The notes under the pieces: model-generated
Told to the model about the DNA's origin: nothing
The model's input: the letters and a program-made list of their open reading frames with translations, nothing else
Database searches by the model: none
From: Rhizohabitans arisaemae
Lineage (GTDB): Bacteria; Actinomycetota; Actinomycetes; Streptosporangiales; Streptosporangiaceae
Assembly (NCBI RefSeq): GCF_025996515.1
Contig: NZ_BLRH01000035.1
Span: 744,001-808,000, forward strand
Length of the DNA: 64,000 bases
Direction of reading: 5' to 3'
Part shown: positions 8,037 through 52,961 of the stretch, piece after piece
Numbering within the stretch: position 1 is the stretch's first letter
How the letters are laid out: each line of letters begins with the position of its first letter
Program-made: the position numbers and the translations under genes

Positions 8037-9257
8037 TCACGAAGGGGGATCGGGCGCGGGGCGGGCGCCGATGTCCAAGAGGAGCCGGAGCGTGGGCCCG
8101 GCCCGGAGCGGGTCGACCGGGAAGACGTGCCGGGTCCACCAGCGTGCTACCTCGGGGGTCGGCCCCGGGTGCACCAGGGTCGGCCCGGCGTAGTCGTCCA
8201 GAGGCGGGTCGTAGACGAAGCCGGGGACGACGCCGAGCCGTTCCAGCGCGAAGACGACCTTGTCCCGATCGGCCACCAGCAGCGGGACCCGCAGCAGCGG
8301 CTGCGGCCGGTCCTCCCATACGGCGGCCGCGCTGAAATGGCTCTCCTGCAGCATTCGTGACCCGAACAGGCGCCGCTCCCGCTCCCGGTCGACCACGTCG
8401 AACCGGGTGCGCAGGTAGGCGAGGGTGCGGGGGCCCGGCCGTCGGCGCCAGTCGCCGGTGTCCACCGACATCCACGGCTCGAAGGCGTCCAGTTCGGACC
8501 GGTGCGCCTCACGGGTGAGCACCCGGGTGGCGAGTGCCTTCCTCAGTTCCCCGGGCCGGGGATCGCACCGGTGCCCGGTCCACTTGATCACGCCGGTCGC
8601 CTTGAGCAGGTGCCAGAGCGGCCGGACCAGCCCGGTGGCGTATACCGTCTCCCGCAGGCTCGGCCGGAGCGCGCCGAGTACGTCGCGGCGCAGGCCGCCG
8701 GGGATCAGCAGCGCGTCCCGCAGCCGGCGCAGGGCCGGGAGTTCGCGAGGGTCCTCCACCGCGAGGAACCCGCCGCCCATGGCTCGGGCGTGCTTGGACA
8801 GGCTGAACAGACCGTACGCGCCGAAGGTGCCGGCCGGCCGGTCTTCCACGGCCGTGAGCCTGGCGTGTGTGAGCATCGCGTGCGCCGCGTCGTCGATCAG
8901 GGTGAGTCCCCGCCGGTCGCATTCGGCGCGGAGCCGCGCGAGGTCGTCGGGGAGCCCGTACAGGTTGGTGGAGACCACCCCCGCCAGACCGGTCCAGTCC
9001 ACCCGGGGCACGTCGATGTTGCCGTTGCGGGGTGAGACGGGCGCCATGACCGGGGTGAGTCCGGCCACGAGCACGGTGAACAGCACGGTCTCGCAGTTGG
9101 TCGGGGCGATCAGGATCCGGTTCCCGGGGGAGAACCGGTGGCGCAGGGCGAGGTAGAGGCCGATTCTGGCCGAGGGGACGAAGAGGCATTCCCGCCGGAT
9201 CCGCTCCGCCATGATCGAGCTCAGCTGTTCCTCCGCGTCCAGGGACCGGGTGCTCAT
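8037..9257 (-). CDS. DegT/DnrJ/EryC1-like PLP-dependent enzyme
   Basis: The 406-residue protein carries the fold-type I pattern of sugar aminotransferases: an N-terminal ILIAPTNCETVLF segment, LIDDAAHAMLT with the PLP-binding Asp, and LFSLSKHARAMGGG, in which the Lys is the expected Schiff-base residue. Relatives transaminate (or dehydrate) nucleotide-linked keto-sugars for surface glycans and glycosylated metabolites. It is the last gene of the glycan operon; its ATG overlaps the stop of the upstream GNAT gene by four bases, implying translational coupling. It is somewhat divergent, so the substrate cannot be named. Confidence 0.8.
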   Translation of the reverse strand: MSTRSLDAEEQLSSIMAERIRRECLFVPSARIGLYLALRHRFSPGNRILIAPTNCETVLFTVLVAGLTPVMAPVSPRNGNIDVPRVDWTGLAGVVSTNLYGLPDDLARLRAECDRRGLTLIDDAAHAMLTHARLTAVEDRPAGTFGAYGLFSLSKHARAMGGGFLAVEDPRELPALRRLRDALLIPGGLRRDVLGALRPSLRETVYATGLVRPLWHLLKATGVIKWTGHRCDPRPGELRKALATRVLTREAHRSELDAFEPWMSVDTGDWRRRPGPRTLAYLRTRFDVVDRERERRLFGSRMLQESHFSAAAVWEDRPQPLLRVPLLVADRDKVVFALERLGVVPGFVYDPPLDDYAGPTLVHPGPTPEVARWWTRHVFPVDPLRAGPTLRLLLDIGARPAPDPPS

Positions 9258-10339
9258 CGGCGCCCCAGCTTGGCCCGGAGTCCGCTGTAGCCGCGCAGGG
9301 CCCGGTCCGCCGCGCCGTACAGCAGCGGGGTGTCCAGGATGAGGCGGCGTGCCGCGTTCGCCGGGACCCGCCGGAGCGCGTGCAGGGTGCCGCCGGGGGA
9401 GTGCCTACGGACGCAGCCTTCCCCCACGGTGACCGTGGCGGTGTGCAGCTGCCGCTTGTACAGGTAGTTCTCGCCGGGACCGAGGTCCAGCCTGCGGATA
9501 CCCGCCGCGGCTGAGGCCTCGGCCATTTTCAGGTGCTGGATCAGCCCGGGGGAGTACCGCCCGTACTCGGGGTCGTAGGCGGGAAACCAGCTGATCAGCG
9601 AGGTGGCGGTACGCAGGCCGAAGTGCCCGGCGATCGGGCGGCCGTCGGCGTGCAGCACGCACAGGGCGCCGAGCGGGCCGTGGTGCAGCCGCCGGACCAG
9701 CTCGGCGACCCAGGGCCGCTCGAACCGGTCGGCGCGGCCCATCCGCCGGTACTGGTCGGACTTCCAGCCGAGCACCCGGCGCAGCAGGCTCTCGTCGGAC
9801 ACCTCGGGGTCGAAGCCGACCGGCCCCGCGTCTCGGGCCAGGCGCCGCTCGGTGTACCGGGTGTTCTTGACGACCTTCGGCGCGGAGTTCCGGAGCGCGG
9901 CCAGGTAGGCGTCGTAGCCGTCGCCCACGTCCATCACGAAGGAGTCCATGGTCCGGGTGGTGTGCGGGGCGAACCACGGCTGTCCCCCGACGAGGAGCCC
10001 GAATTCGAAGACGTCCAGCCCGGCCTCGCGCAGCAGCACACGGAGATCGAGCTCGGGCAGGGCCTCGGGGCGGGCGACGATCCCCTGGCCGAGGGAGACC
10101 CACCCGGCGATCGCCGTACCAACTCCGAATTTGCCCCGCTCAAACGGGAAAAATCCGCAAATATCCGCTCCAGCGGAGAGCACCGCCACCCGGGCGTGCG
10201 GCAGGACCTCCCCCGCGGCGATCGTGAACTCCGGGCTGAGGAAGGGGTTGTCCAGGTGCGGCACCGCCCCCTGGATCTTCCGCCAGGCCGCGACCTCCGC
10301 CGATCCCAGCTCGGCGGGCCGGACGACCGAGACCCTCAT
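9254..10339 (-). CDS. BioF2-like GNAT family acyltransferase, copy 1
   Basis: This 361-residue protein has the double-GNAT, CelD/BcsL-like layout common in exopolysaccharide clusters: NPFLSPEFTIAAGEVLP near the N-terminus, ICGFFPFER, a central VLGWKSDQYRRMGRADRF segment, GHFGLRTATSLISWFPAYDP, YSPGLIQHLKMAEASAAAGIRRLDLGPGENYLYK. It probably transfers an acyl or aminoacyl group to a sugar. A paralogue of exactly the same length heads the operon at 18877-19962. It overlaps both neighbours by four bases (ATGA), so its translation is coupled. Confidence 0.82.
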   Translation of the reverse strand: MRVSVVRPAELGSAEVAAWRKIQGAVPHLDNPFLSPEFTIAAGEVLPHARVAVLSAGADICGFFPFERGKFGVGTAIAGWVSLGQGIVARPEALPELDLRVLLREAGLDVFEFGLLVGGQPWFAPHTTRTMDSFVMDVGDGYDAYLAALRNSAPKVVKNTRYTERRLARDAGPVGFDPEVSDESLLRRVLGWKSDQYRRMGRADRFERPWVAELVRRLHHGPLGALCVLHADGRPIAGHFGLRTATSLISWFPAYDPEYGRYSPGLIQHLKMAEASAAAGIRRLDLGPGENYLYKRQLHTATVTVGEGCVRRHSPGGTLHALRRVPANAARRLILDTPLLYGAADRALRGYSGLRAKLGRR

Positions 10340-46070: not shown

Positions 46071-47696
46071 ATGCGACGCACCGCGCGAACCGCACAGATC
46101 ACCGCTCTGACCACGGGTCTACTGATCGGACTGGCGTCGACGCCCACCTGGGCGTCACCTCCCGCGGACGGCATGGCCGTCCCCGATCCCCGGCCCACCA
46201 ACGAGACGTCCGTCACCTACCACACAGTGCCGCCGGGTGGGTACATGTCCCATGAGGACGCGGTGAAGGTCGTCATGGAAGCAATGAAGGACAAGGTCAG
46301 GGGAGGCGGGTCCGAGTCCGGGCGGGGCCGTCCCAAGCCGGGTTACGGTCGTCCCGGGATGGGGTACCCGATGTCGGGCCACGGCCGTCCTGGGATGGGT
46401 TACCCAAGGTCGGGCCACGGCCGTCCCGGTATGGGCTTCTCCCGGCCGGATCGTGGACGTCCCGGGATGGGTTACTCCCGCCCGGGTTATCGGCCCGGGA
46501 TGGGCTACGGGCCGGGTCAGGGCCGCCCCGGGATGGGCTATCCCCGCCCGGGCCAAGGTCGTCCTGAGACGGGCTATCCGGGGTCCGGACAGGGTCGTCC
46601 CGGGACGGGCTACTACGGGCCCGGCCAGAATCGTCCGGGGATGGGTTACTCCCGCCCGGGTTATCGGCCCGGGATGGGCTACGAGCCGGGTCAGGGCCGC
46701 CCCGGATCGGGCTACTCCAGGCCGGGTCAGGGTGGTCGTCCGGGGATGGGCTACTCCAGGCCGGAAGGTCGTCCAGGGACGGGGTACACCAGGCCGGAGC
46801 AGAGCCGTCCCATGGCGGGCCCCTCCCGGCCGGGCGGCAGCCGTTCGTTCGCGGGCCACGCCGATCCGGGCCGGGCGCGCCCCGCGGTGAGCGCCCGCTC
46901 GGCGATGCTGTACGACGCGCAGGCCGGGCGGGTCCTGCTCGCCAAGGACGCCCAGCGGGTACGTCCGGTGGCGAGCCTCACCAAGGTCATGACCGCCTAC
47001 ATCGTGCTGAAGGAGGGCAGGCTGGACGACAGGATCCGGATCACGGAGGCAGACGTCCGGCACGCCCGGACGAGCGGGGCCACCCACGCCGCGCTGCGAC
47101 CGGGGGAGGTCTTGACCACGCGGGAACTGCTGTACGCCCTCATGCTCTCGTCGGCGAGCGACGCCTCCGAGGCGCTCGCCCGCACCTACGGCCCGGGTGT
47201 CCCGCGATTCGTCGACAAGATGAACCGGTACGCGTCCAGGCTCGGGATGCGGCAGACCCGCTACGTGAACCCGGACGGGCTTCCGGAGACCGACCGCTCC
47301 GGACGCGGCGGCTTCTCCACCGCCTCGGATCAGGTGCGGCTGGCGCGGCTCGCCCTGCTCGACCCCGCGTTCACCTCGATCGCGAGCGCGCCCCGCTACA
47401 CCCTCGCCGCCGCCCAGGGACGGCCGGCCCGTACCTGGCGTAACACCAACAGCCTGCTCACCTCCTACCGGGACGCCGTCGGGGTGAAGACCGGCTTCAC
47501 CTCCCCGGCCGGCTTCTGCCTGTCGTTCGCGGCCCGCCGGGACGGCCGGCTGCTGATCGGGGTTCTCCTGGACGCGACGAAGAACAGCTCGGCCAGCCGC
47601 TTCCGGGACGCCGCCCGCCTGCTGGACTGGGCTTACAGCGCGGACCGGACTCCGCTCGTCGCCACGGGCGAGTCCGCCGCCGGCGCGACGGGCTAG
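46071..47696 (+). CDS. D-alanyl-D-alanine carboxypeptidase with Gly/Pro-rich repeat domain, copy 2
   Basis: GGGGAGGA precedes ATG 46071; the protein has 541 residues. A signal peptide (TTGLLIGLASTPTWA) is followed by about 160 residues of RPGMGYSRPGYG-like repeats, then an S11 peptidase domain with SLTKVM, SSASDASEAL and VKTGFTSPAGF. The catalytic part closely follows copy 1 at 26435-27457. The positively charged repeats probably hold the enzyme in the wall or bind anionic polymers. A MSHEDAVKVVMEAMKDKV segment before the repeats resembles no domain I know. Confidence 0.9.
   Translation: MRRTARTAQITALTTGLLIGLASTPTWASPPADGMAVPDPRPTNETSVTYHTVPPGGYMSHEDAVKVVMEAMKDKVRGGGSESGRGRPKPGYGRPGMGYPMSGHGRPGMGYPRSGHGRPGMGFSRPDRGRPGMGYSRPGYRPGMGYGPGQGRPGMGYPRPGQGRPETGYPGSGQGRPGTGYYGPGQNRPGMGYSRPGYRPGMGYEPGQGRPGSGYSRPGQGGRPGMGYSRPEGRPGTGYTRPEQSRPMAGPSRPGGSRSFAGHADPGRARPAVSARSAMLYDAQAGRVLLAKDAQRVRPVASLTKVMTAYIVLKEGRLDDRIRITEADVRHARTSGATHAALRPGEVLTTRELLYALMLSSASDASEALARTYGPGVPRFVDKMNRYASRLGMRQTRYVNPDGLPETDRSGRGGFSTASDQVRLARLALLDPAFTSIASAPRYTLAAAQGRPARTWRNTNSLLTSYRDAVGVKTGFTSPAGFCLSFAARRDGRLLIGVLLDATKNSSASRFRDAARLLDWAYSADRTPLVATGESAAGATG
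46325..46815 (+). repeat. Repeats coding RPGMGYxRPGxG
   Basis: About fourteen imperfect units, mostly 30-42 bp, encode GRPGMGYSRPG, GRPGMGYPRPG and YRPGMGYGPGQ. A longer stretch (about 46460-46520) recurs almost unchanged at about 46630-46695, so some copies are recent. Confidence 0.85.
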
Positions 47697-47798: not shown

Positions 47799-48323
47799 TC
47801 AGGCGAGCCAGCCGGGTGGGAGGGCGGGAGAGCAGCGGGCGCGGGCGGCGGGGGAGAGGAACGGGGTCAGGGAGCGCAGGGTGGGCCGGGCGTCCGCCAG
47901 GTGCGCGAGACCGAGGCGGGGAAGCTGCTCCAGGAGGTTGGCGGCGTAGACGTCCGCGAGGGCGTGCCGCAGCGGAGCGTCCACGGTCAGGGTGGAGCCG
48001 TCGCCCAGCCGGAGTTCCGGCGAGTCCGGGACGGGGAACGCGCCGGGGGCGCGGTGGGCGAAGGCGTAGGCGAGGGTCTCCGCGGAGGGGCCGACGACCG
48101 AGCGGACGACCGGGCGGGCTCCGGGGGTCAGCAGGGGGCGGCCTCCGGCGGGTGATCCGTACACCGAGTGCAGGAGGCCGCCGTGGACCACCCAGTCGGG
48201 TTCCGCCCAGGAGTCGAGGATGCGGGCGGTTCCGGTGAGGTGGTCCAGGAGCGTGCGGCCGCTGTGCGGAACCCGGTCGGCTCCACAGGTCCGCAGCAGG
48301 GCGACCGCGATCTCGGAGATCAC
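47799..48323 (-). CDS. HD-like DUF6817-type protein of the RiPP operon
   Basis: GTG 48323 overlaps the radical SAM stop (GTGA), giving 174 residues. RVPHSGRTLLDHLTGTARIL, WVVHGGLLHSVYGS and RHALADVYAANLLEQLPRLG follow the pattern of DUF6817, a His-rich domain related to HD hydrolases (His in HSGRTLLDHL, then LLHSVYG). Its role is not established. As the last gene of a tightly coupled operon it may finish, transport or hydrolyse part of the modified peptide. Confidence 0.75.
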   Translation of the reverse strand: MISEIAVALLRTCGADRVPHSGRTLLDHLTGTARILDSWAEPDWVVHGGLLHSVYGSPAGGRPLLTPGARPVVRSVVGPSAETLAYAFAHRAPGAFPVPDSPELRLGDGSTLTVDAPLRHALADVYAANLLEQLPRLGLAHLADARPTLRSLTPFLSPAARARCSPALPPGWLA

Positions 48324-50353
48324 GCGGGGGCCTTGGCGGTCCGGGCCGGCGAAGGCCTGAGGAGATACCTCTTGATCGGCACGGTGGAGACCTCCTCCTC
48401 CGACGCCGAGACCCCCCGGACGCAGTCGATCAGCGCGGTCAACGCCGCGTGGTTCGGCTGATAGACCGCCAGGTCGGTGGCGAGCGCGAGGTGGAGCCCC
48501 CGATCCCGGTAGATCAGGCCGTGCTCGGCGAGCAGGGCGAGCGCGGCCGCCACGTCGTCGTCGGTGACGCCGGGGTGCTCGGCGCGGGCCGCGGCCGTCA
48601 GCGCCGGCGAGCCGGTGAAGCGGTCGCATGCCAGGTAGAGGGTGCGGGCGAGGCCGTCGAGCACGGTGAGCGGGGCGCCGGCGCAGGGCCGGGTGTCCCA
48701 GAGCAGCAGGTAGGGCGGTCGGTCCATCATGACGAAGACCGAGGAGTCGTGGACCCGGAACCACTCCTCGACGGCCTGGCCCAGCGCCTCGGTGTAGGCG
48801 GTGACGTCTCTGCCGTCGGCGTACCGGAAGGTGAAGAAGTAGGCGAGGTTGGCGAGTGCCTCGTCGTCCAGCCGGTAGACGTACCGGTAGGAGGGGTAGG
48901 GCCGTACGTCGGTCAGGCCGTACTCCGCGGCTTTGCTGTGGTTCGGGCTGAAGCGGTCGAGCCGGATGGCGGAGGCGCCGCCCGGCGGGGGAAGGTGCGC
49001 GAGCAGCGGGAGCGCCCGGGCCATGCGCGCGTACTCCTCGGGTGGCTCTCCGGGGAATCCCCAGAGCAGGTTCCACTCGGGTTTCACCCCGAGCTCCAGG
49101 CACCATTTGAGCAGCTGGACGTTTTGGATGCCGCGGACGCCCTTCCGCATCAACGCCAGCACCGGGTCGCTCAGGCTCTCGATTCCCGGCTGGATGTTGT
49201 CCACCCCGGCGGCCTTGAGCAGCCGGATCTGGTCCTTGCGCAGATTCGCCTTCGTCTCGTAGAAGACCTGCAGGTCGAGTTTCCGCTCCGCCAGCCACGG
49301 CAGGTATTCCCCGAAGTACCGCATGTCCAGGATGTTGTCCACCATGGAGACCTGGTGGACGTCGTACCGCTCCGTCAGGGTCTCCAGCTCCCGCATCGCC
49401 GTGCGCTGGGACTTGCGGCGGAAGGTGAGGCCGGTGCCGTTGAGCCCGCAGAAGGTGCAGTGGTGTTTCTCGCCCCACCAGCAGCCCCGCGAGGTCTCCA
49501 GCACGAGTCTCGGGCTGAGCCCCCAGGCGGCCGCGACCGCGGACGCCTCGGCGAAGTACTCGTCGTAGTCGGGGGCGGGCAGGCTGTCCAGGTCGGTCAC
49601 GGCCGGTCGCACCGGCAGGCCGACGCCAACGCCTGCGCCCCGGGTGCGCAGGCCGCGGACGCGACGTACGGGACGTCCCCGCTGGAATGCGGTGACCAGC
49701 TCGCGGAAGGCGTCCTCGCCTTCGCCCGACACGACGGCGTCGAGCGCGGGGAAGTGTTTCAGCAGTTCGATCCCCATGGGGTCTTCGCAGTTGGCCCCGC
49801 CCATGACCGTGTAGACGTCCGGTCGGCGCCGCTTGATCTCCCGGGCGATCGCCAGCGAGGACATGTTCTGCTGGAAGACGCTGGTGAACCCGACGAGGTC
49901 CGGTTCGCGGCCGAGGATCTCCTCGGCGGCGGCTCGGACGAAGTCCGCCGCGCTCGCCCGGGCGCGGATCAGGTTCTCCGTGAACAGCGGGAGGGCTTCG
50001 GGCTCGCAGCGCCTGGTCTTGCGGTGCGCGACGTCGCCGCCGTGGATGATCCGCGACAGGTAGGCGTCGTCGTCCTCACCGGGGGAACCGGTCGCCGCCG
50101 GCGCGAAGACCCACTCCCCGGCGAGGTCGTGGGTGGCGGGTGCGCCCGCGGCCAGTTTCCCGTAGGCCGTCTCGCCGATGATCCGGGCGAAGGCGAAGCC
50201 CTGATAGAACACCTTCACCTCGGCGCCGAGTGCGGATCCGAGCGATTTGAGCAGCCCGAGGGCGAGTGAAGGGGTGTCGAGCGGGCCGAACGGGGCGGAG
50301 ACCAGGGAGATCCGGAGCGGTGTGGAACGTTCCATGTTTCCGGCGGGGCTCAT
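48320..50353 (-). CDS. B12-binding radical SAM enzyme of RiPP maturation (C-methyltransferase-like)
   Basis: ATG 50353 overlaps the HExxH gene stop (ATGA) and has GGAG upstream; it gives 677 residues. A cobalamin-binding Rossmann domain (about 1-230: LVGFTSVFQQNMSSLAIAR, VMGGANCEDPMG, VVSGEGEDAF) precedes the radical SAM core with Cys291, Cys299 and Cys302 in CWWGEKHHCTFC. This CX7CX2C spacing is the mark of the RiPP maturation radical SAM 1 group (TIGR03975). NIQPGIESLSDPVLALMRKG and WNLLWGFPGEPPEEY support it. Such enzymes methylate unactivated carbons of peptide residues. A C-terminal helical region (about 500-677) likely binds the peptide. Confidence 0.9.
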   Translation of the reverse strand: MSPAGNMERSTPLRISLVSAPFGPLDTPSLALGLLKSLGSALGAEVKVFYQGFAFARIIGETAYGKLAAGAPATHDLAGEWVFAPAATGSPGEDDDAYLSRIIHGGDVAHRKTRRCEPEALPLFTENLIRARASAADFVRAAAEEILGREPDLVGFTSVFQQNMSSLAIAREIKRRRPDVYTVMGGANCEDPMGIELLKHFPALDAVVSGEGEDAFRELVTAFQRGRPVRRVRGLRTRGAGVGVGLPVRPAVTDLDSLPAPDYDEYFAEASAVAAAWGLSPRLVLETSRGCWWGEKHHCTFCGLNGTGLTFRRKSQRTAMRELETLTERYDVHQVSMVDNILDMRYFGEYLPWLAERKLDLQVFYETKANLRKDQIRLLKAAGVDNIQPGIESLSDPVLALMRKGVRGIQNVQLLKWCLELGVKPEWNLLWGFPGEPPEEYARMARALPLLAHLPPPGGASAIRLDRFSPNHSKAAEYGLTDVRPYPSYRYVYRLDDEALANLAYFFTFRYADGRDVTAYTEALGQAVEEWFRVHDSSVFVMMDRPPYLLLWDTRPCAGAPLTVLDGLARTLYLACDRFTGSPALTAAARAEHPGVTDDDVAAALALLAEHGLIYRDRGLHLALATDLAVYQPNHAALTALIDCVRGVSASEEEVSTVPIKRYLLRPSPARTAKAPA

Positions 50354-51414
50354 CTGTCGCTCCATGATCTGCCGAACTCCAGGATCTCCCGCAGGGCCGG
50401 GTCGCCGGGTGTCTGAGAGCCCAGCCCTTCGCCGAGCCGACGCGCCGCCTCGCCCAGTTCCGCGGCGCGTCGTCCGTAGGCCTCGGGGTCGTCGCCGGAT
50501 CGGCGATCGGCGAGCCAGGCGTTGAACCTGGCGGCCTCAAGGTAGATCAGGTAGGCGTGGGTCATCACGTCCCTGCCCAGCAGCCGGCCGGTGAGCGGGG
50601 AACGGACGGGGGCGCCCGGCGCCGGGACGGCGGCCTCGGGACGGAACTCCCACAGGCGCCAGAGCTCCTGGTGGGCGTACTCGTGCAGCAGTCCCTCGGC
50701 CACCAGGCCGACGTCCTCCTCCGACGCGTCCACGAAGATCCCGCCGAAGTAGGTCAGCCGGCAGCTGTAGCTCCGCCGGGGGAGCGTGGCGAGGCTCGGT
50801 GTGATCACGATGGTCCGCACCACCTCGGCGAAATCGGCCGCCAGGACGGGGGAGAAAGCGCGGATCAGCCGGAGCGCTTCGGTCACCCGCGCGACGCGGG
50901 GGTCGGTGGGACCCGGTGCGTCACCGGCCGGGTAGAGGTCGGCCGGGATGAGGTCCGCGAACAGCCCGGTCCTCGGGTACATCGCCACCAGGTCCTCGGT
51001 CAGCCGTACCGCCGTGGTGGGGAACACGTCCTCCAGGCGGTTTTGGCGGAGGGTGAGGACGGCGTCGTGGGAGTGGCAGAGCCGCCAGTAGCCGCCGGGT
51101 GGCCGGCCCGGCGCCGACCGGGGGGACAGGCCCAGATGCAGGGCGAGTCTGCGCAGGCACTCGTCGATCTCCACCGGGGTCCGGTCGTGGTCGCGGAGCG
51201 CGTGCAGAAACGGATAGATCTCCGGGTTTCCCCGGCTCTTCCCGTTCGGCCGGGCGAGGTATTCCTCAAACGCCTCCAGGACGTCCCGTCGGCCGGAGAG
51301 GTGCTCCCGCTCTTTCAGCGAGCGCAGCAGACGGATTGCCAGGGAGAACGGTTCACGTATTCGGCGGTTTTCCCCGCCGGATTGGTGCGTCACCAGGTCA
51401 CCGATGAGATGCAT
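50350..51414 (-). CDS. HExxH-type peptide-modifying protein (aKG-HExxH beta-hydroxylase-like)
   Basis: ATG 51414 is preceded by GGGAAAG and gives 354 residues; a TTG eight codons earlier is less likely. HEYAH at 244-248 (LVAEGLLHEYAHQELW) lies after a ILI-type strand (RTIVITPSL), and RLTYFGGIFVDASE precedes it. The layout matches the HExxH RiPP-associated family TIGR04267, for which 2-oxoglutarate-dependent beta-hydroxylation of peptide residues has been described. Its place between precursor and radical SAM genes fits a tailoring role. Metal and co-substrate are inferred. Confidence 0.83.
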   Translation of the reverse strand: MHLIGDLVTHQSGGENRRIREPFSLAIRLLRSLKEREHLSGRRDVLEAFEEYLARPNGKSRGNPEIYPFLHALRDHDRTPVEIDECLRRLALHLGLSPRSAPGRPPGGYWRLCHSHDAVLTLRQNRLEDVFPTTAVRLTEDLVAMYPRTGLFADLIPADLYPAGDAPGPTDPRVARVTEALRLIRAFSPVLAADFAEVVRTIVITPSLATLPRRSYSCRLTYFGGIFVDASEEDVGLVAEGLLHEYAHQELWRLWEFRPEAAVPAPGAPVRSPLTGRLLGRDVMTHAYLIYLEAARFNAWLADRRSGDDPEAYGRRAAELGEAARRLGEGLGSQTPGDPALREILEFGRSWSDR

Positions 51415-51597
51415 TGGCACTTTCCCATAGGAAAACAAGCCGGCGGGGGACGGCGTCCGGGCCTCGGGTTTTTGTCTTTGCGGATGTCGTCCGGCGGAAT
51501 ATCGGCCGAAGTCCGACCTCCGTTGCCGAGATGCCCGGCGCCGTCGGCGGGTGAATTCTGTTTCAGGGTGTTTCGCGGATTTCGGCGGATGGGTGGC

Positions 51598-51795
51598 TCA
51601 GAAATCCACACCCACACTGACGTGTACGTTGTTGACGACGGGGTCGGTCCGGCCGATCGGAATATTCGACTTCAGGATCTCGGCGAGCTCCTGATTCTTG
51701 ATGACCAGATTTCCGTCTCGGTCGACCGAGAAATGCTCCCTGGTGAGCGATTCGTTGACGGGTAGATCGAGTTCTGTCGAGGTTCTCTTCGTCAT
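51598..51795 (-). CDS. RiPP precursor peptide
   Basis: The 65-residue peptide starts at ATG 51795, seven bases after a strong AAGGAG. Residues 1-45 look like a leader: hydrophilic, Glu-rich, then DGNLVIKNQELAEILKSN, an amphipathic helix of the kind recognised by RiPP enzymes. The C-terminal part reads IPIGRTDPVVNNVHVSVGVDF-like; the last 15 residues DPVVNNVHVSVGVDF hold five Val, two Asn and one His, good targets for C-methylation and beta-hydroxylation, and no Cys, Ser-rich or Thr-rich core. It has its own promoter and opens the operon. Leader/core boundary is a guess near residue 45-51. Confidence 0.82.
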   Translation of the reverse strand: MTKRTSTELDLPVNESLTREHFSVDRDGNLVIKNQELAEILKSNIPIGRTDPVVNNVHVSVGVDF

Positions 51796-51837
51796 GACCG
51801 ATCTCCTTGGGTCGTCGAAATTGCGGCTCCCAAGGGG

Positions 51838-51866
51838 AACCTACGTCCCGGGATTGGTCACGTCAA
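51838..51866 (-). promoter_or_regulatory. Promoter of the RiPP operon, with dyad near the start site
   Basis: TTGACG (51866-51861) and TAGGTT (51843-51838) are separated by 17 bp, one of the clearest promoters in the window. Transcription should start near 51831. A 7-bp dyad CCTTGGG/CCCAAGG (51829-51835 and 51805-51811) covers the predicted start and the ribosome site (51803-51808). The gap to the sulfotransferase stop at 52056 shows no gene. Confidence 0.7.
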
Positions 51867-52055
51867 CGTCTCATCCAGGTCTTGCGAAAATGATTTTCCT
51901 GACGGCCTGGCCTTGCAGTGGCTTTTCTCGGCTGACATTTATGAATCATTTGGTCAATGATTGTCAATCGCCGTCATCCGACAAATGCCTAAAAACCCGG
52001 GTGAGGAGAAGCCCGGATCGCCCACCTTGACCGGATGCCGGGCGTGACCCGCCGC

Positions 52056-52883
52056 TCAGCCGGTGATCGGGTAGTCCCAGCTCCGGCAGATCTCGTGCAG
52101 GCCTTCGGGGGTGTGGTCGGGGAAGGGCGCGGCCTGCTGGATCCGGCCGGAACTGATCTTCTCCTTCCAGTCGCCGAGGCCCCGCTTGAAGGAGGTGCCG
52201 CTCTTGCCGTACTCCAGCATCCCCGGCTCCCAGGCGAGGCCGAGGAAGTCGCACAACCCCCGGCCGACCCGTTCCGGTTCCGCGGTGAGCTCCTCGTACC
52301 GCACGGTGATCCCGGGGAGCTCGGTGCGCGCCTCGTTCAGCGCGTTCATGTAGCCGAGCACGTTCTCGACGGTCTCCTCGACGGTCCACTTGGGGCGGGC
52401 CTGATGCCAGGAGCGGGCGATCGAGGCGGGGTGCCGGAGGAGGAAGACGTGCGCGGCGCCGGGCCAGCACTGGGCGATCCGGCGCCACATGAAGACGTGG
52501 TTGGGGGTCTTCACCACGATCCGGGTCTTGCCGCTCTTGGCCAGTTCGGTGTCGAGGATGCGGTCCCAGAGGAGGTGCTCCAGGTCGCGCGCCGACATCC
52601 CCAGCTCCTTCATCGCCTTCTGCACGTAGGAGGAGCCGAGCTCGACGTGCATGTGCCGCAGATGCAGCTCATGCGGGGCGTGCAGTGTGGAGTGGCTGCC
52701 GAGGACGGACTTGAGCAGGGTGGAGCCGGAGCGTACCGAGCAGTGGATGAACACCGGGTCGGGAACCAGCCGGTCGTCGTCTGAGCGGCCGCCGCGCGTG
52801 CTGGGGCTCGCCGGGCCGACTCGGGTGAGCTGGTATCCGGTCAACCGTTGCAGGGCATCGTTGACCCGTCGTTTGATGTCCAT
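52056..52883 (-). CDS. Sulfotransferase (PAPS-dependent)
   Basis: ATG 52883 gives 275 residues. The 5'-PSB loop HCSVRSGSTLLKSVLGSH and 3'-PB segment HVFLLRHPASIARSWHQ match sulfotransferases of the Stf0/NodH-like kind, and VKTPNHVFMWRR lies between. It moves a sulfate from PAPS to a sugar, lipid or peptide. It lies directly upstream of the RiPP operon in the same direction but is separated from it by the operon's own promoter. It could modify the peptide or belong to the glycan genes. Confidence 0.87.
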   Translation of the reverse strand: MDIKRRVNDALQRLTGYQLTRVGPASPSTRGGRSDDDRLVPDPVFIHCSVRSGSTLLKSVLGSHSTLHAPHELHLRHMHVELGSSYVQKAMKELGMSARDLEHLLWDRILDTELAKSGKTRIVVKTPNHVFMWRRIAQCWPGAAHVFLLRHPASIARSWHQARPKWTVEETVENVLGYMNALNEARTELPGITVRYEELTAEPERVGRGLCDFLGLAWEPGMLEYGKSGTSFKRGLGDWKEKISSGRIQQAAPFPDHTPEGLHEICRSWDYPITG

Positions 52884-52961
52884 TGAGGCAAGTCTCCCGA
52901 CTTGTCCTGAAAAAAGCCTCAAAGAAGCCTGATGGGAACCTGGCATTCCACTCGGAGTGCC

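Follow-up and report, generated by a model that had tools for sequence, protein, structure and literature searches.

A probable RiPP operon of Rhizohabitans arisaemae encoding a short-leader precursor peptide, an HExxH protein, a B12-dependent radical SAM enzyme, and a DUF6817 protein

Methylation and hydroxylation are known to occur together in the polytheonamides, which belong to the ribosomally synthesized and post-translationally modified peptides (RiPPs). In the polytheonamide (poy) cluster, the precursor carries a long leader of the NHLP type and a canonical alpha-ketoglutarate (alpha-KG) hydroxylase is present. We analyzed a 64,000-nucleotide stretch of R. arisaemae DNA (assembly GCF_025996515.1, contig NZ_BLRH01000035.1, positions 744,001 to 808,000 of the forward strand; referred to as the window), in which adjacent genes encode a 65-residue peptide, an HExxH protein, a B12-dependent radical S-adenosylmethionine (SAM) enzyme, and a DUF6817 protein (Table 1). 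With poy, the window shares a B12-dependent radical SAM enzyme carrying a CX7CX2C motif (PoyC in poy) and, putatively, Val/Ile C-beta-methylation; it differs from poy in its short leader of another family, its HExxH protein, and DUF6817. In passages of the review PMC11285071, Cx7Cx2C is described as unique to PoyC, the enzyme that methylates polytheonamide Ile3 and Val 5, 10, and 21.

With the biphenomycin clusters bip and bpm, the window shares an HExxH protein of the alpha-KG-HExxH type alongside a B12-dependent radical SAM enzyme. Portions of PMC12707348 and PMC12257519 describe these clusters as containing an alpha-KG-HExxH enzyme, a multinuclear nonheme iron-dependent oxidative enzyme (MNIO), and a crosslinking B12-dependent radical SAM enzyme, so that the pairing in one RiPP cluster was already known. 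In the biphenomycin systems (bip, bpm, and the related pbs), an MNIO and an arginase take part, and ortho-tyrosines are crosslinked within an FRF core. These traits were not seen at the window locus: family scans of all four proteins of the operon and of the gene upstream gave no MNIO, and the FRF core was absent from the window peptide. ChlB/FxsB-type radical SAM-HExxH fusions, PflC/PosC, and PesO share the HExxH motif (and ChlB, by a weak model, the HExxH-domain fold), whereas the window HExxH protein is stand-alone, falls below the family cut-off, carries SP-x-T-x-R, and is paired with a B12-dependent radical SAM enzyme. The one open-access library that was searched returned only the biphenomycins for HExxH proteins and cobalamin in RiPPs, and no paper for an HExxH protein together with a radical SAM C-methyltransferase in a RiPP.

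All four open reading frames (ORFs) named in a preliminary description of this locus were found on the minus strand, and the reported 4-base overlaps joining the last three genes were confirmed as ATGA (HExxH/radical SAM) and GTGA (radical SAM/DUF6817). An in-frame ATG 12 nt upstream of the assigned radical SAM start (50365) would yield 681 residues and a longer overlap with the HExxH gene. Pfam and NCBIfam scans of the four proteins found no protease and no exporter, as had been stated. The RiPP reading of the operon was well supported, and judging from its sequences we consider it likely that the locus C-methylates and beta-hydroxylates its precursor peptide. Gene content, order, protein families, and the peptide family were observed; from them we infer all chemical steps.

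Table 1. Features of the four-gene locus in window coordinates
Feature	Coordinates	Strand	Basis or remark
Precursor peptide gene, 65 aa	51598..51795	-	ORF with AAGGAG; profile relatives in nine other radical SAM loci, all on the radical SAM strand
Ribosome-binding site AAGGAG, 7 nt 5' of the peptide ATG	51803..51808	-	Sequence
Leader motif, residues 17-41, LTREHFSVDRDGNLVIKNQELAEIL	51673..51747	-	L17, G28, and I32 unchanged across an alignment of seven peptides
Proposed core, residues 50-65, TDPVVNNVHVSVGVDF	51601..51648	-	Val/Ile i,i+2 alternation; putative core start
HExxH protein gene, 354 aa, proposed alpha-KG-dependent peptide beta-hydroxylase	50350..51414	-	TIGR04267 match below the cut-off; profile and model matches
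HEYAH metal-binding motif, residues 244-248	50671..50685	-	H244, E245, and H248 the same in all six HExxH proteins aligned
B12-dependent radical SAM gene, TIGR03975, 677 aa	48320..50353	-	634 bits; PF02310 and PF04055
CX7CX2C iron-sulfur motif, CWWGEKHHCTFC	49448..49483	-	C291, C299, and C302 invariant in the radical SAM alignment
DUF6817 gene, GTG start, 174 aa	47799..48323	-	PF20680; predicted HD fold, small alarmone hydrolase-like, HD aspartate replaced

A direct search with the window peptide found no close relative in the genome contigs and one weak plasmid match (E 0.2), an ORF (L058:7938-8192) that ends at the start of an annotated radical SAM gene (8189-9259). The best NCBIfam matches of this plasmid radical SAM protein were SPASM peptide maturases, below their cut-offs. 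A search with the radical SAM alignment gave 561 confirmed loci from many phyla, the best 80 of which were used; in these, the window peptide alone matched five small ORFs (E <= 0.5), each within 0.5 kb of the radical SAM match and on the same strand. A profile was then grown by iteration from a seven-peptide seed, only matches near the radical SAM gene and on its strand being kept. At E <= 0.01, the final profile matched 11 peptides in 10 of 162 radical SAM loci (the window included; a few regions, e.g. L039 and L227, are present twice), and five of the 11 were new relative to the seed. All lay on the radical SAM strand, and no match at this threshold was found away from the radical SAM gene in the 162 loci. 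A peptide gene lay within 0.25 kb of the radical SAM match in each of the nine other loci; the distance was 1.24 kb in the window because the HExxH gene sits between them.

When applied to 0.79 Mb of control sequence from 105 other loci, the profile recovered only the window region and two Streptomyces plasmid peptides beside a radical SAM gene. A precursor-first search (394 genomes of the class; 16 candidates scored per genome listed) returned the window peptide, two peptides of genome G058, and a 324-aa ORF of genome G412. The G058 peptides stood in tandem, followed closely by an ORF that its CX3CX2C motif marks as radical SAM-like. The G412 ORF (E 0.0045; 5.5e-6 in a small set) was taken as a false match because no radical SAM motif was found among the listed surrounding ORFs. 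With this one exception, homologues of the 65-residue gene adjoined radical SAM genes, which is what the preliminary description had expected of its neighborhoods. These relatives span several phyla and have a conserved leader and similar tails.

The window precursor matched no Pfam or NCBIfam model and, in a difference from the proteusins, had no recognizable NHLP or Nif11 leader. Ten family peptides likewise had no fitting model in these databases, three of them giving weak matches to unrelated families. Val/Ile made up 30% of the last 15 residues of the 11 family peptides, compared with 10% of the preceding portion, which takes in some residues ahead of the start codon. The same tails contained 25 Val/Ile i,i+2 pairs versus 11.6 in shuffles, none of 2000 shuffles being as high; the 11 members are related and so not independent in this statistic. 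The proposed core of the window peptide contains six Val, one Phe, and one His, and neither Tyr nor Trp; as an unmodified C-terminal tryptic peptide it has a calculated [M+H]+ of 1697.85.

In two loci, L058:7417-8189 and L307:6785-7329, two peptides each with the same leader family and Cys-rich cores were observed ahead of a different type of radical SAM gene (SPASM maturases as best matches in L058; a CX3CX2C ORF in L307). It therefore seems that a single type of leader works with more than one kind of maturase. A separate arrangement was seen in six loci of Acidobacteriota and Gemmatimonadota (L195, L198, L203, L205, L213, and L223), in which a tiny Lys-rich peptide lies directly 3' of a TIGR03975-type radical SAM gene; such a peptide occurred in 6 of the best 80 of 561 loci and in none of 593 control windows. 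Several of these radical SAM proteins end in a tail that is similar to the leader of the precursor, e.g. LTPAHFSWNARGELVVR. A strict leader-like pattern was present in 3 of 80 tails of the same loci and in 0 of 732 internal windows, the pattern and the Lys threshold having been chosen with the first cases in view; the precursor profile scored these tails as not significant. The set looks like a maturase with a built-in leader acting on a leaderless substrate.

The assignment of the radical SAM enzyme to the TIGR03975 type in the preliminary description was borne out over the full length of the protein (634.2 bits; cut-off 281.85; 2e-190), and a PF02310 B12-binding domain was present (38.3 bits; cut-off 32.1) beside PF04055. 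In a tree of 40 radical SAM proteins, the window enzyme grouped with those of L214, L200, and L230 (95/64; branch not starred), and in L200 and L230 a precursor also lies upstream of the radical SAM gene. Val C-beta-methylation is our best guess for its activity, by analogy with PoyC, which carries this CX7CX2C motif and methylates the beta-carbon of Val.

In the HExxH protein, S272, P273, and H286 of the distal segment were also invariant among the six aligned proteins. The Arg two residues after SP (SPWR of ChlH), which is present in most relatives, was Thr in the window, L214, and L247, with an Arg two residues further on (SP-x-T-x-R). A profile of four HExxH relatives matched the solved structures of ChlH (8s5f; E 1.7e-15) and 22nu (E 1.6e-9). 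The best fits of the AlphaFold2 model, which is poor (predicted local distance difference test (pLDDT) 54.8), were 8s5f (Z 11.2) and 22ob, titled SjiH-Ni (Z 10.0), the next row standing at 6.9; a search of the same library for SjiH or SjiB gave only unrelated-looking work. The three Foldseek matches at E <= 0.001 were all chains of one HExxH-domain entry titled alpha-KG dependent oxygenase. By these comparisons, the protein is a remote relative of the alpha-KG-HExxH beta-hydroxylases, and its variant motif is a divergence within a known family. Parts of PMC13060819 describe known alpha-KG-HExxH enzymes as alpha-KG dependent and as hydroxylating His, Asp, Phe, Gln, and Pro. Beta-hydroxylation by the window protein would be in line with this relationship.

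In the pathway that we propose, the leader (about residues 1-49) would dock the enzymes and bring the C-terminal core to them. The PoyC-like radical SAM enzyme would methylate Val beta-carbons in NNVHVSVGVDF (Val to tert-leucine), a step that we regard as probable. The HExxH protein would beta-hydroxylate a polar residue (Asn, His, or Asp) between the Val of the same core, a step that appears moderately likely. DUF6817 may assist or act third, and the leader would be removed by a host protease encoded elsewhere. Such a compact four-gene set would join C-methylation and beta-hydroxylation and could be rebuilt in Escherichia coli.

How regularly the genes accompany each other was judged from the 162 loci. 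An unrelated bacterium, represented by a Rhodoferax metagenome-assembled genome (L214), has HExxH, radical SAM, and DUF6817 genes in the same order and on the same strand as the window, at identities of 29-31, 43, and 35-37%, respectively. Lysinibacillus xylanilyticus (L232) has a radical SAM gene, a precursor, an M16 peptidase, a winged-helix protein, an HExxH gene, and a major facilitator superfamily (MFS) gene, and in Mangrovihabitans (L247) an HExxH ORF directly follows the radical SAM gene (E 0.023 to the window protein). DUF6817 occurred in at least five loci (window, L214, L072, L090, and L094); in the last three, it lies about 7 kb from the radical SAM gene, and their DUF6817 proteins range from nearly identical to closely similar. 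In 65 other genomes of the family with a match to the window radical SAM protein (E about 1e-11 or better), no TIGR04267 match was found within 15 kb of it, as judged by comparing coordinates by eye and as far as short contigs allow; the 20 and 60 regions retrieved all stem from these genomes and that of the window. HExxH relatives gave only three weak matches in 296 other genomes of the family and six in 393 other genomes of the class, and none in the plasmids or viral contigs searched. A locus of another genome (L187:1355-12960, G301) contains two tandem HExxH proteins and a 40-aa ORF, among other genes that include, as judged by eye, one for an M16-type protein and one resembling MFS genes.

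Several points weigh against a C-methylating and beta-hydroxylating RiPP operon. An HExxH gene was present in only 2 of the 10 precursor loci (some on short contigs) and in at least 4 of the 162 radical SAM loci, L247 counting only at E 0.023. Thus, the HExxH protein is an occasional, not a fixed, companion of the precursor family, a weaker link than the preliminary description had put forward. The precursor of L214 cannot be checked because the contig ends inside the HExxH gene. The 162 loci are centered on radical SAM genes, so that only the 105 other loci and the precursor-first search could reveal peptides distant from such genes. CX7CX2C was present in 145 of 146 distinct radical SAM rows (window included); it therefore marks the family rather than one reaction and alone is no predictor of Val methylation. 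The HExxH protein scored 32.8 bits against TIGR04267 (35.4 in six frames), below the cut-off of 40, and its structural model is the poor one mentioned above. Because of this score and the replacement of the SPxR Arg by Thr, it is not filed as a TIGR04267 member; the HExxH and SP...H residues are kept, the profile and, by the poor model, the fold are related, and it probably works like TIGR04267 enzymes. Finally, when the minus strand was scanned from 51400 to 52100 for sigma-70-like sites, the only type covered, none was found, and the earlier statement that the genes stand behind one promoter was not confirmed. A 183-bp gap separates the peptide and HExxH genes, and the fold of this gap was not notable (z -1.24), so that transcription of peptide and enzyme genes together is assumed; an Rfam search gave no match. 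Of the preliminary interpretation, the RiPP operon, the C-methyltransferase-family radical SAM enzyme, and the HExxH relationship remained, and the common promoter and the conservation of HExxH did not.

A further point against methylation is that BipD and PbsB crosslink aromatic residues (for BipD, passages of PMC12707348). The radical SAM enzyme might accordingly form a carbon-carbon crosslink or carry out another oxidation, and the occurrence of an alpha-KG-HExxH gene in bip and bpm and a match of the window enzyme to ApyD (1.1e-22) would fit. The TIGR03975 match is far stronger, however, and the core offers six Val but hardly any aromatic residues, so that we regard this as unlikely. We judged it quite unlikely that the HExxH protein is a zincin-type leader or follower protease, or an oxidative cleaver of the backbone, instead of a hydroxylase. 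HExxH is a zincin motif, the operon lacks a protease gene, and the SPxR arginine of other family members is Thr; moreover, portions of PMC12636437 describe oxidative cleavage of the backbone by PflC and PosC as well, with leader-independent proteolysis by the alpha-KG-HExxH enzyme PflC. The best fold and profile matches were nevertheless two HExxH-domain enzymes of solved structure; one entry bears the title alpha-KG dependent oxygenase, and all three Foldseek matches at E <= 0.001 were chains of it. An unmodified regulatory or structural 65-aa peptide, with the enzymes acting on another substrate, would suit the 183-bp gap, the lack of promoter evidence, and the lower G+C content at third codon positions of the peptide gene (0.73, compared with 0.87 for HExxH, 0.92 for radical SAM, and 0.91 for DUF6817), but is very improbable given relatives with a conserved leader and similar tails beside radical SAM genes in several phyla.

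The preliminary description had also suggested a C-methylated and beta-hydroxylated product that may be of an undescribed kind. Neither a model nor a paper was found in the family databases and the library for the precursor family or for DUF6817 in a RiPP operon; the pairing of HExxH and B12-dependent radical SAM enzymes is known from the biphenomycins, and the product itself is predicted. Possible but doubtful is that the operon stands for a new class of RiPPs. Cores with alternating Val would then be presented by a short leader family to two enzymes, a C-methylase like PoyC and a divergent HExxH oxygenase (SPxTxR), and DUF6817 would either be the third catalyst or be required by the peptide oxygenase as its partner. 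For some of the TIGR03975 enzymes, the locus provides a precursor family that can be used in searches, and it places the DUF6817 protein in a testable biochemical setting.

The DUF6817 protein matched PF20680 with 69.5 bits (gathering score 25.2; 2.7e-19), a family for which no paper was found in the library. Its AlphaFold2 model (pLDDT 79, built from two sequences) fitted MESH1 and other small alarmone hydrolases with Z 11.8-13.4 over 146-149 residues (MESH1 13.4 over 146), values that mostly helical models often reach; Foldseek alone gave a best E of 0.13. Rel/SpoT-type proteins reached up to Z 10.6 and other HD proteins 8.2 and below. A weak profile match (E 0.019) aligned AGLLHS of DUF6817 with AGLLHD of Lmo0812. 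H28, H52, and N129 were invariant in seven aligned DUF6817 proteins, and the HD aspartate after H52 was Ser or Ala in all seven (Ser in the window). The modeling suggests that DUF6817 likely has the HD fold of the small alarmone hydrolases (MESH1, SAH, and RelH), from which it differs by the HD aspartate; because this residue is replaced, (p)ppGpp hydrolase activity is not expected. A relation to HD oxygenases (TmpB and PhnZ) was set aside for its weaker fit (Z 5.4-6.0 versus 13.4).

DUF6817 was also considered as a general partner of 2-oxoglutarate (2OG) oxygenases. Six of 14 plasmid records were inspected, four of them with usable annotation. In the records from Caballeronia and Polaromonas, DUF6817 stood directly 3' of a gene for a 2OG-Fe(II) oxygenase; in those from Leptospira and Streptomyces NBC_00158, it did not. 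In Nonomuraea (L072), a TauD ORF lies some 5 kb from DUF6817. Twenty chromosomal loci were taken, and the DUF6817 ORF was found in 15; of 56 neighbors picked, 28 were scanned. They matched 55 Pfam families, and the 25 families listed included a single oxygenase-type candidate (HalD). Because neighborhoods were mixed, with an oxygenase link in some places and not in others, no general partnership is claimed. L072, from Nonomuraea gerenzanensis, combines a TIGR03975-type radical SAM enzyme, an asparagine synthase, TauD, a P450, an ORF that by eye resembles PqqD, another of 44 aa, and DUF6817.

Upstream of the operon lie a Sulfotransfer_3 gene (52056-52946) and, further on, a BTAD-domain regulator. 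The sulfotransferase was rejected as a tailoring gene and treated as ordinary because matches were widespread, occurring in 97 of 150 genomes of the family (its own included), many at 50-58% identity and some weak. The same genome encodes a second, distant TIGR03975-like radical SAM protein (G000:C33:78102-79964; L038), 32% identical, with no precursor-profile match nearby. On the opposite strand, the operon is adjoined by a D-Ala-D-Ala carboxypeptidase-like ORF (46071-47696; judged from its translation), which by eye carries a long N-terminal repeat of RPGMGY-type units.

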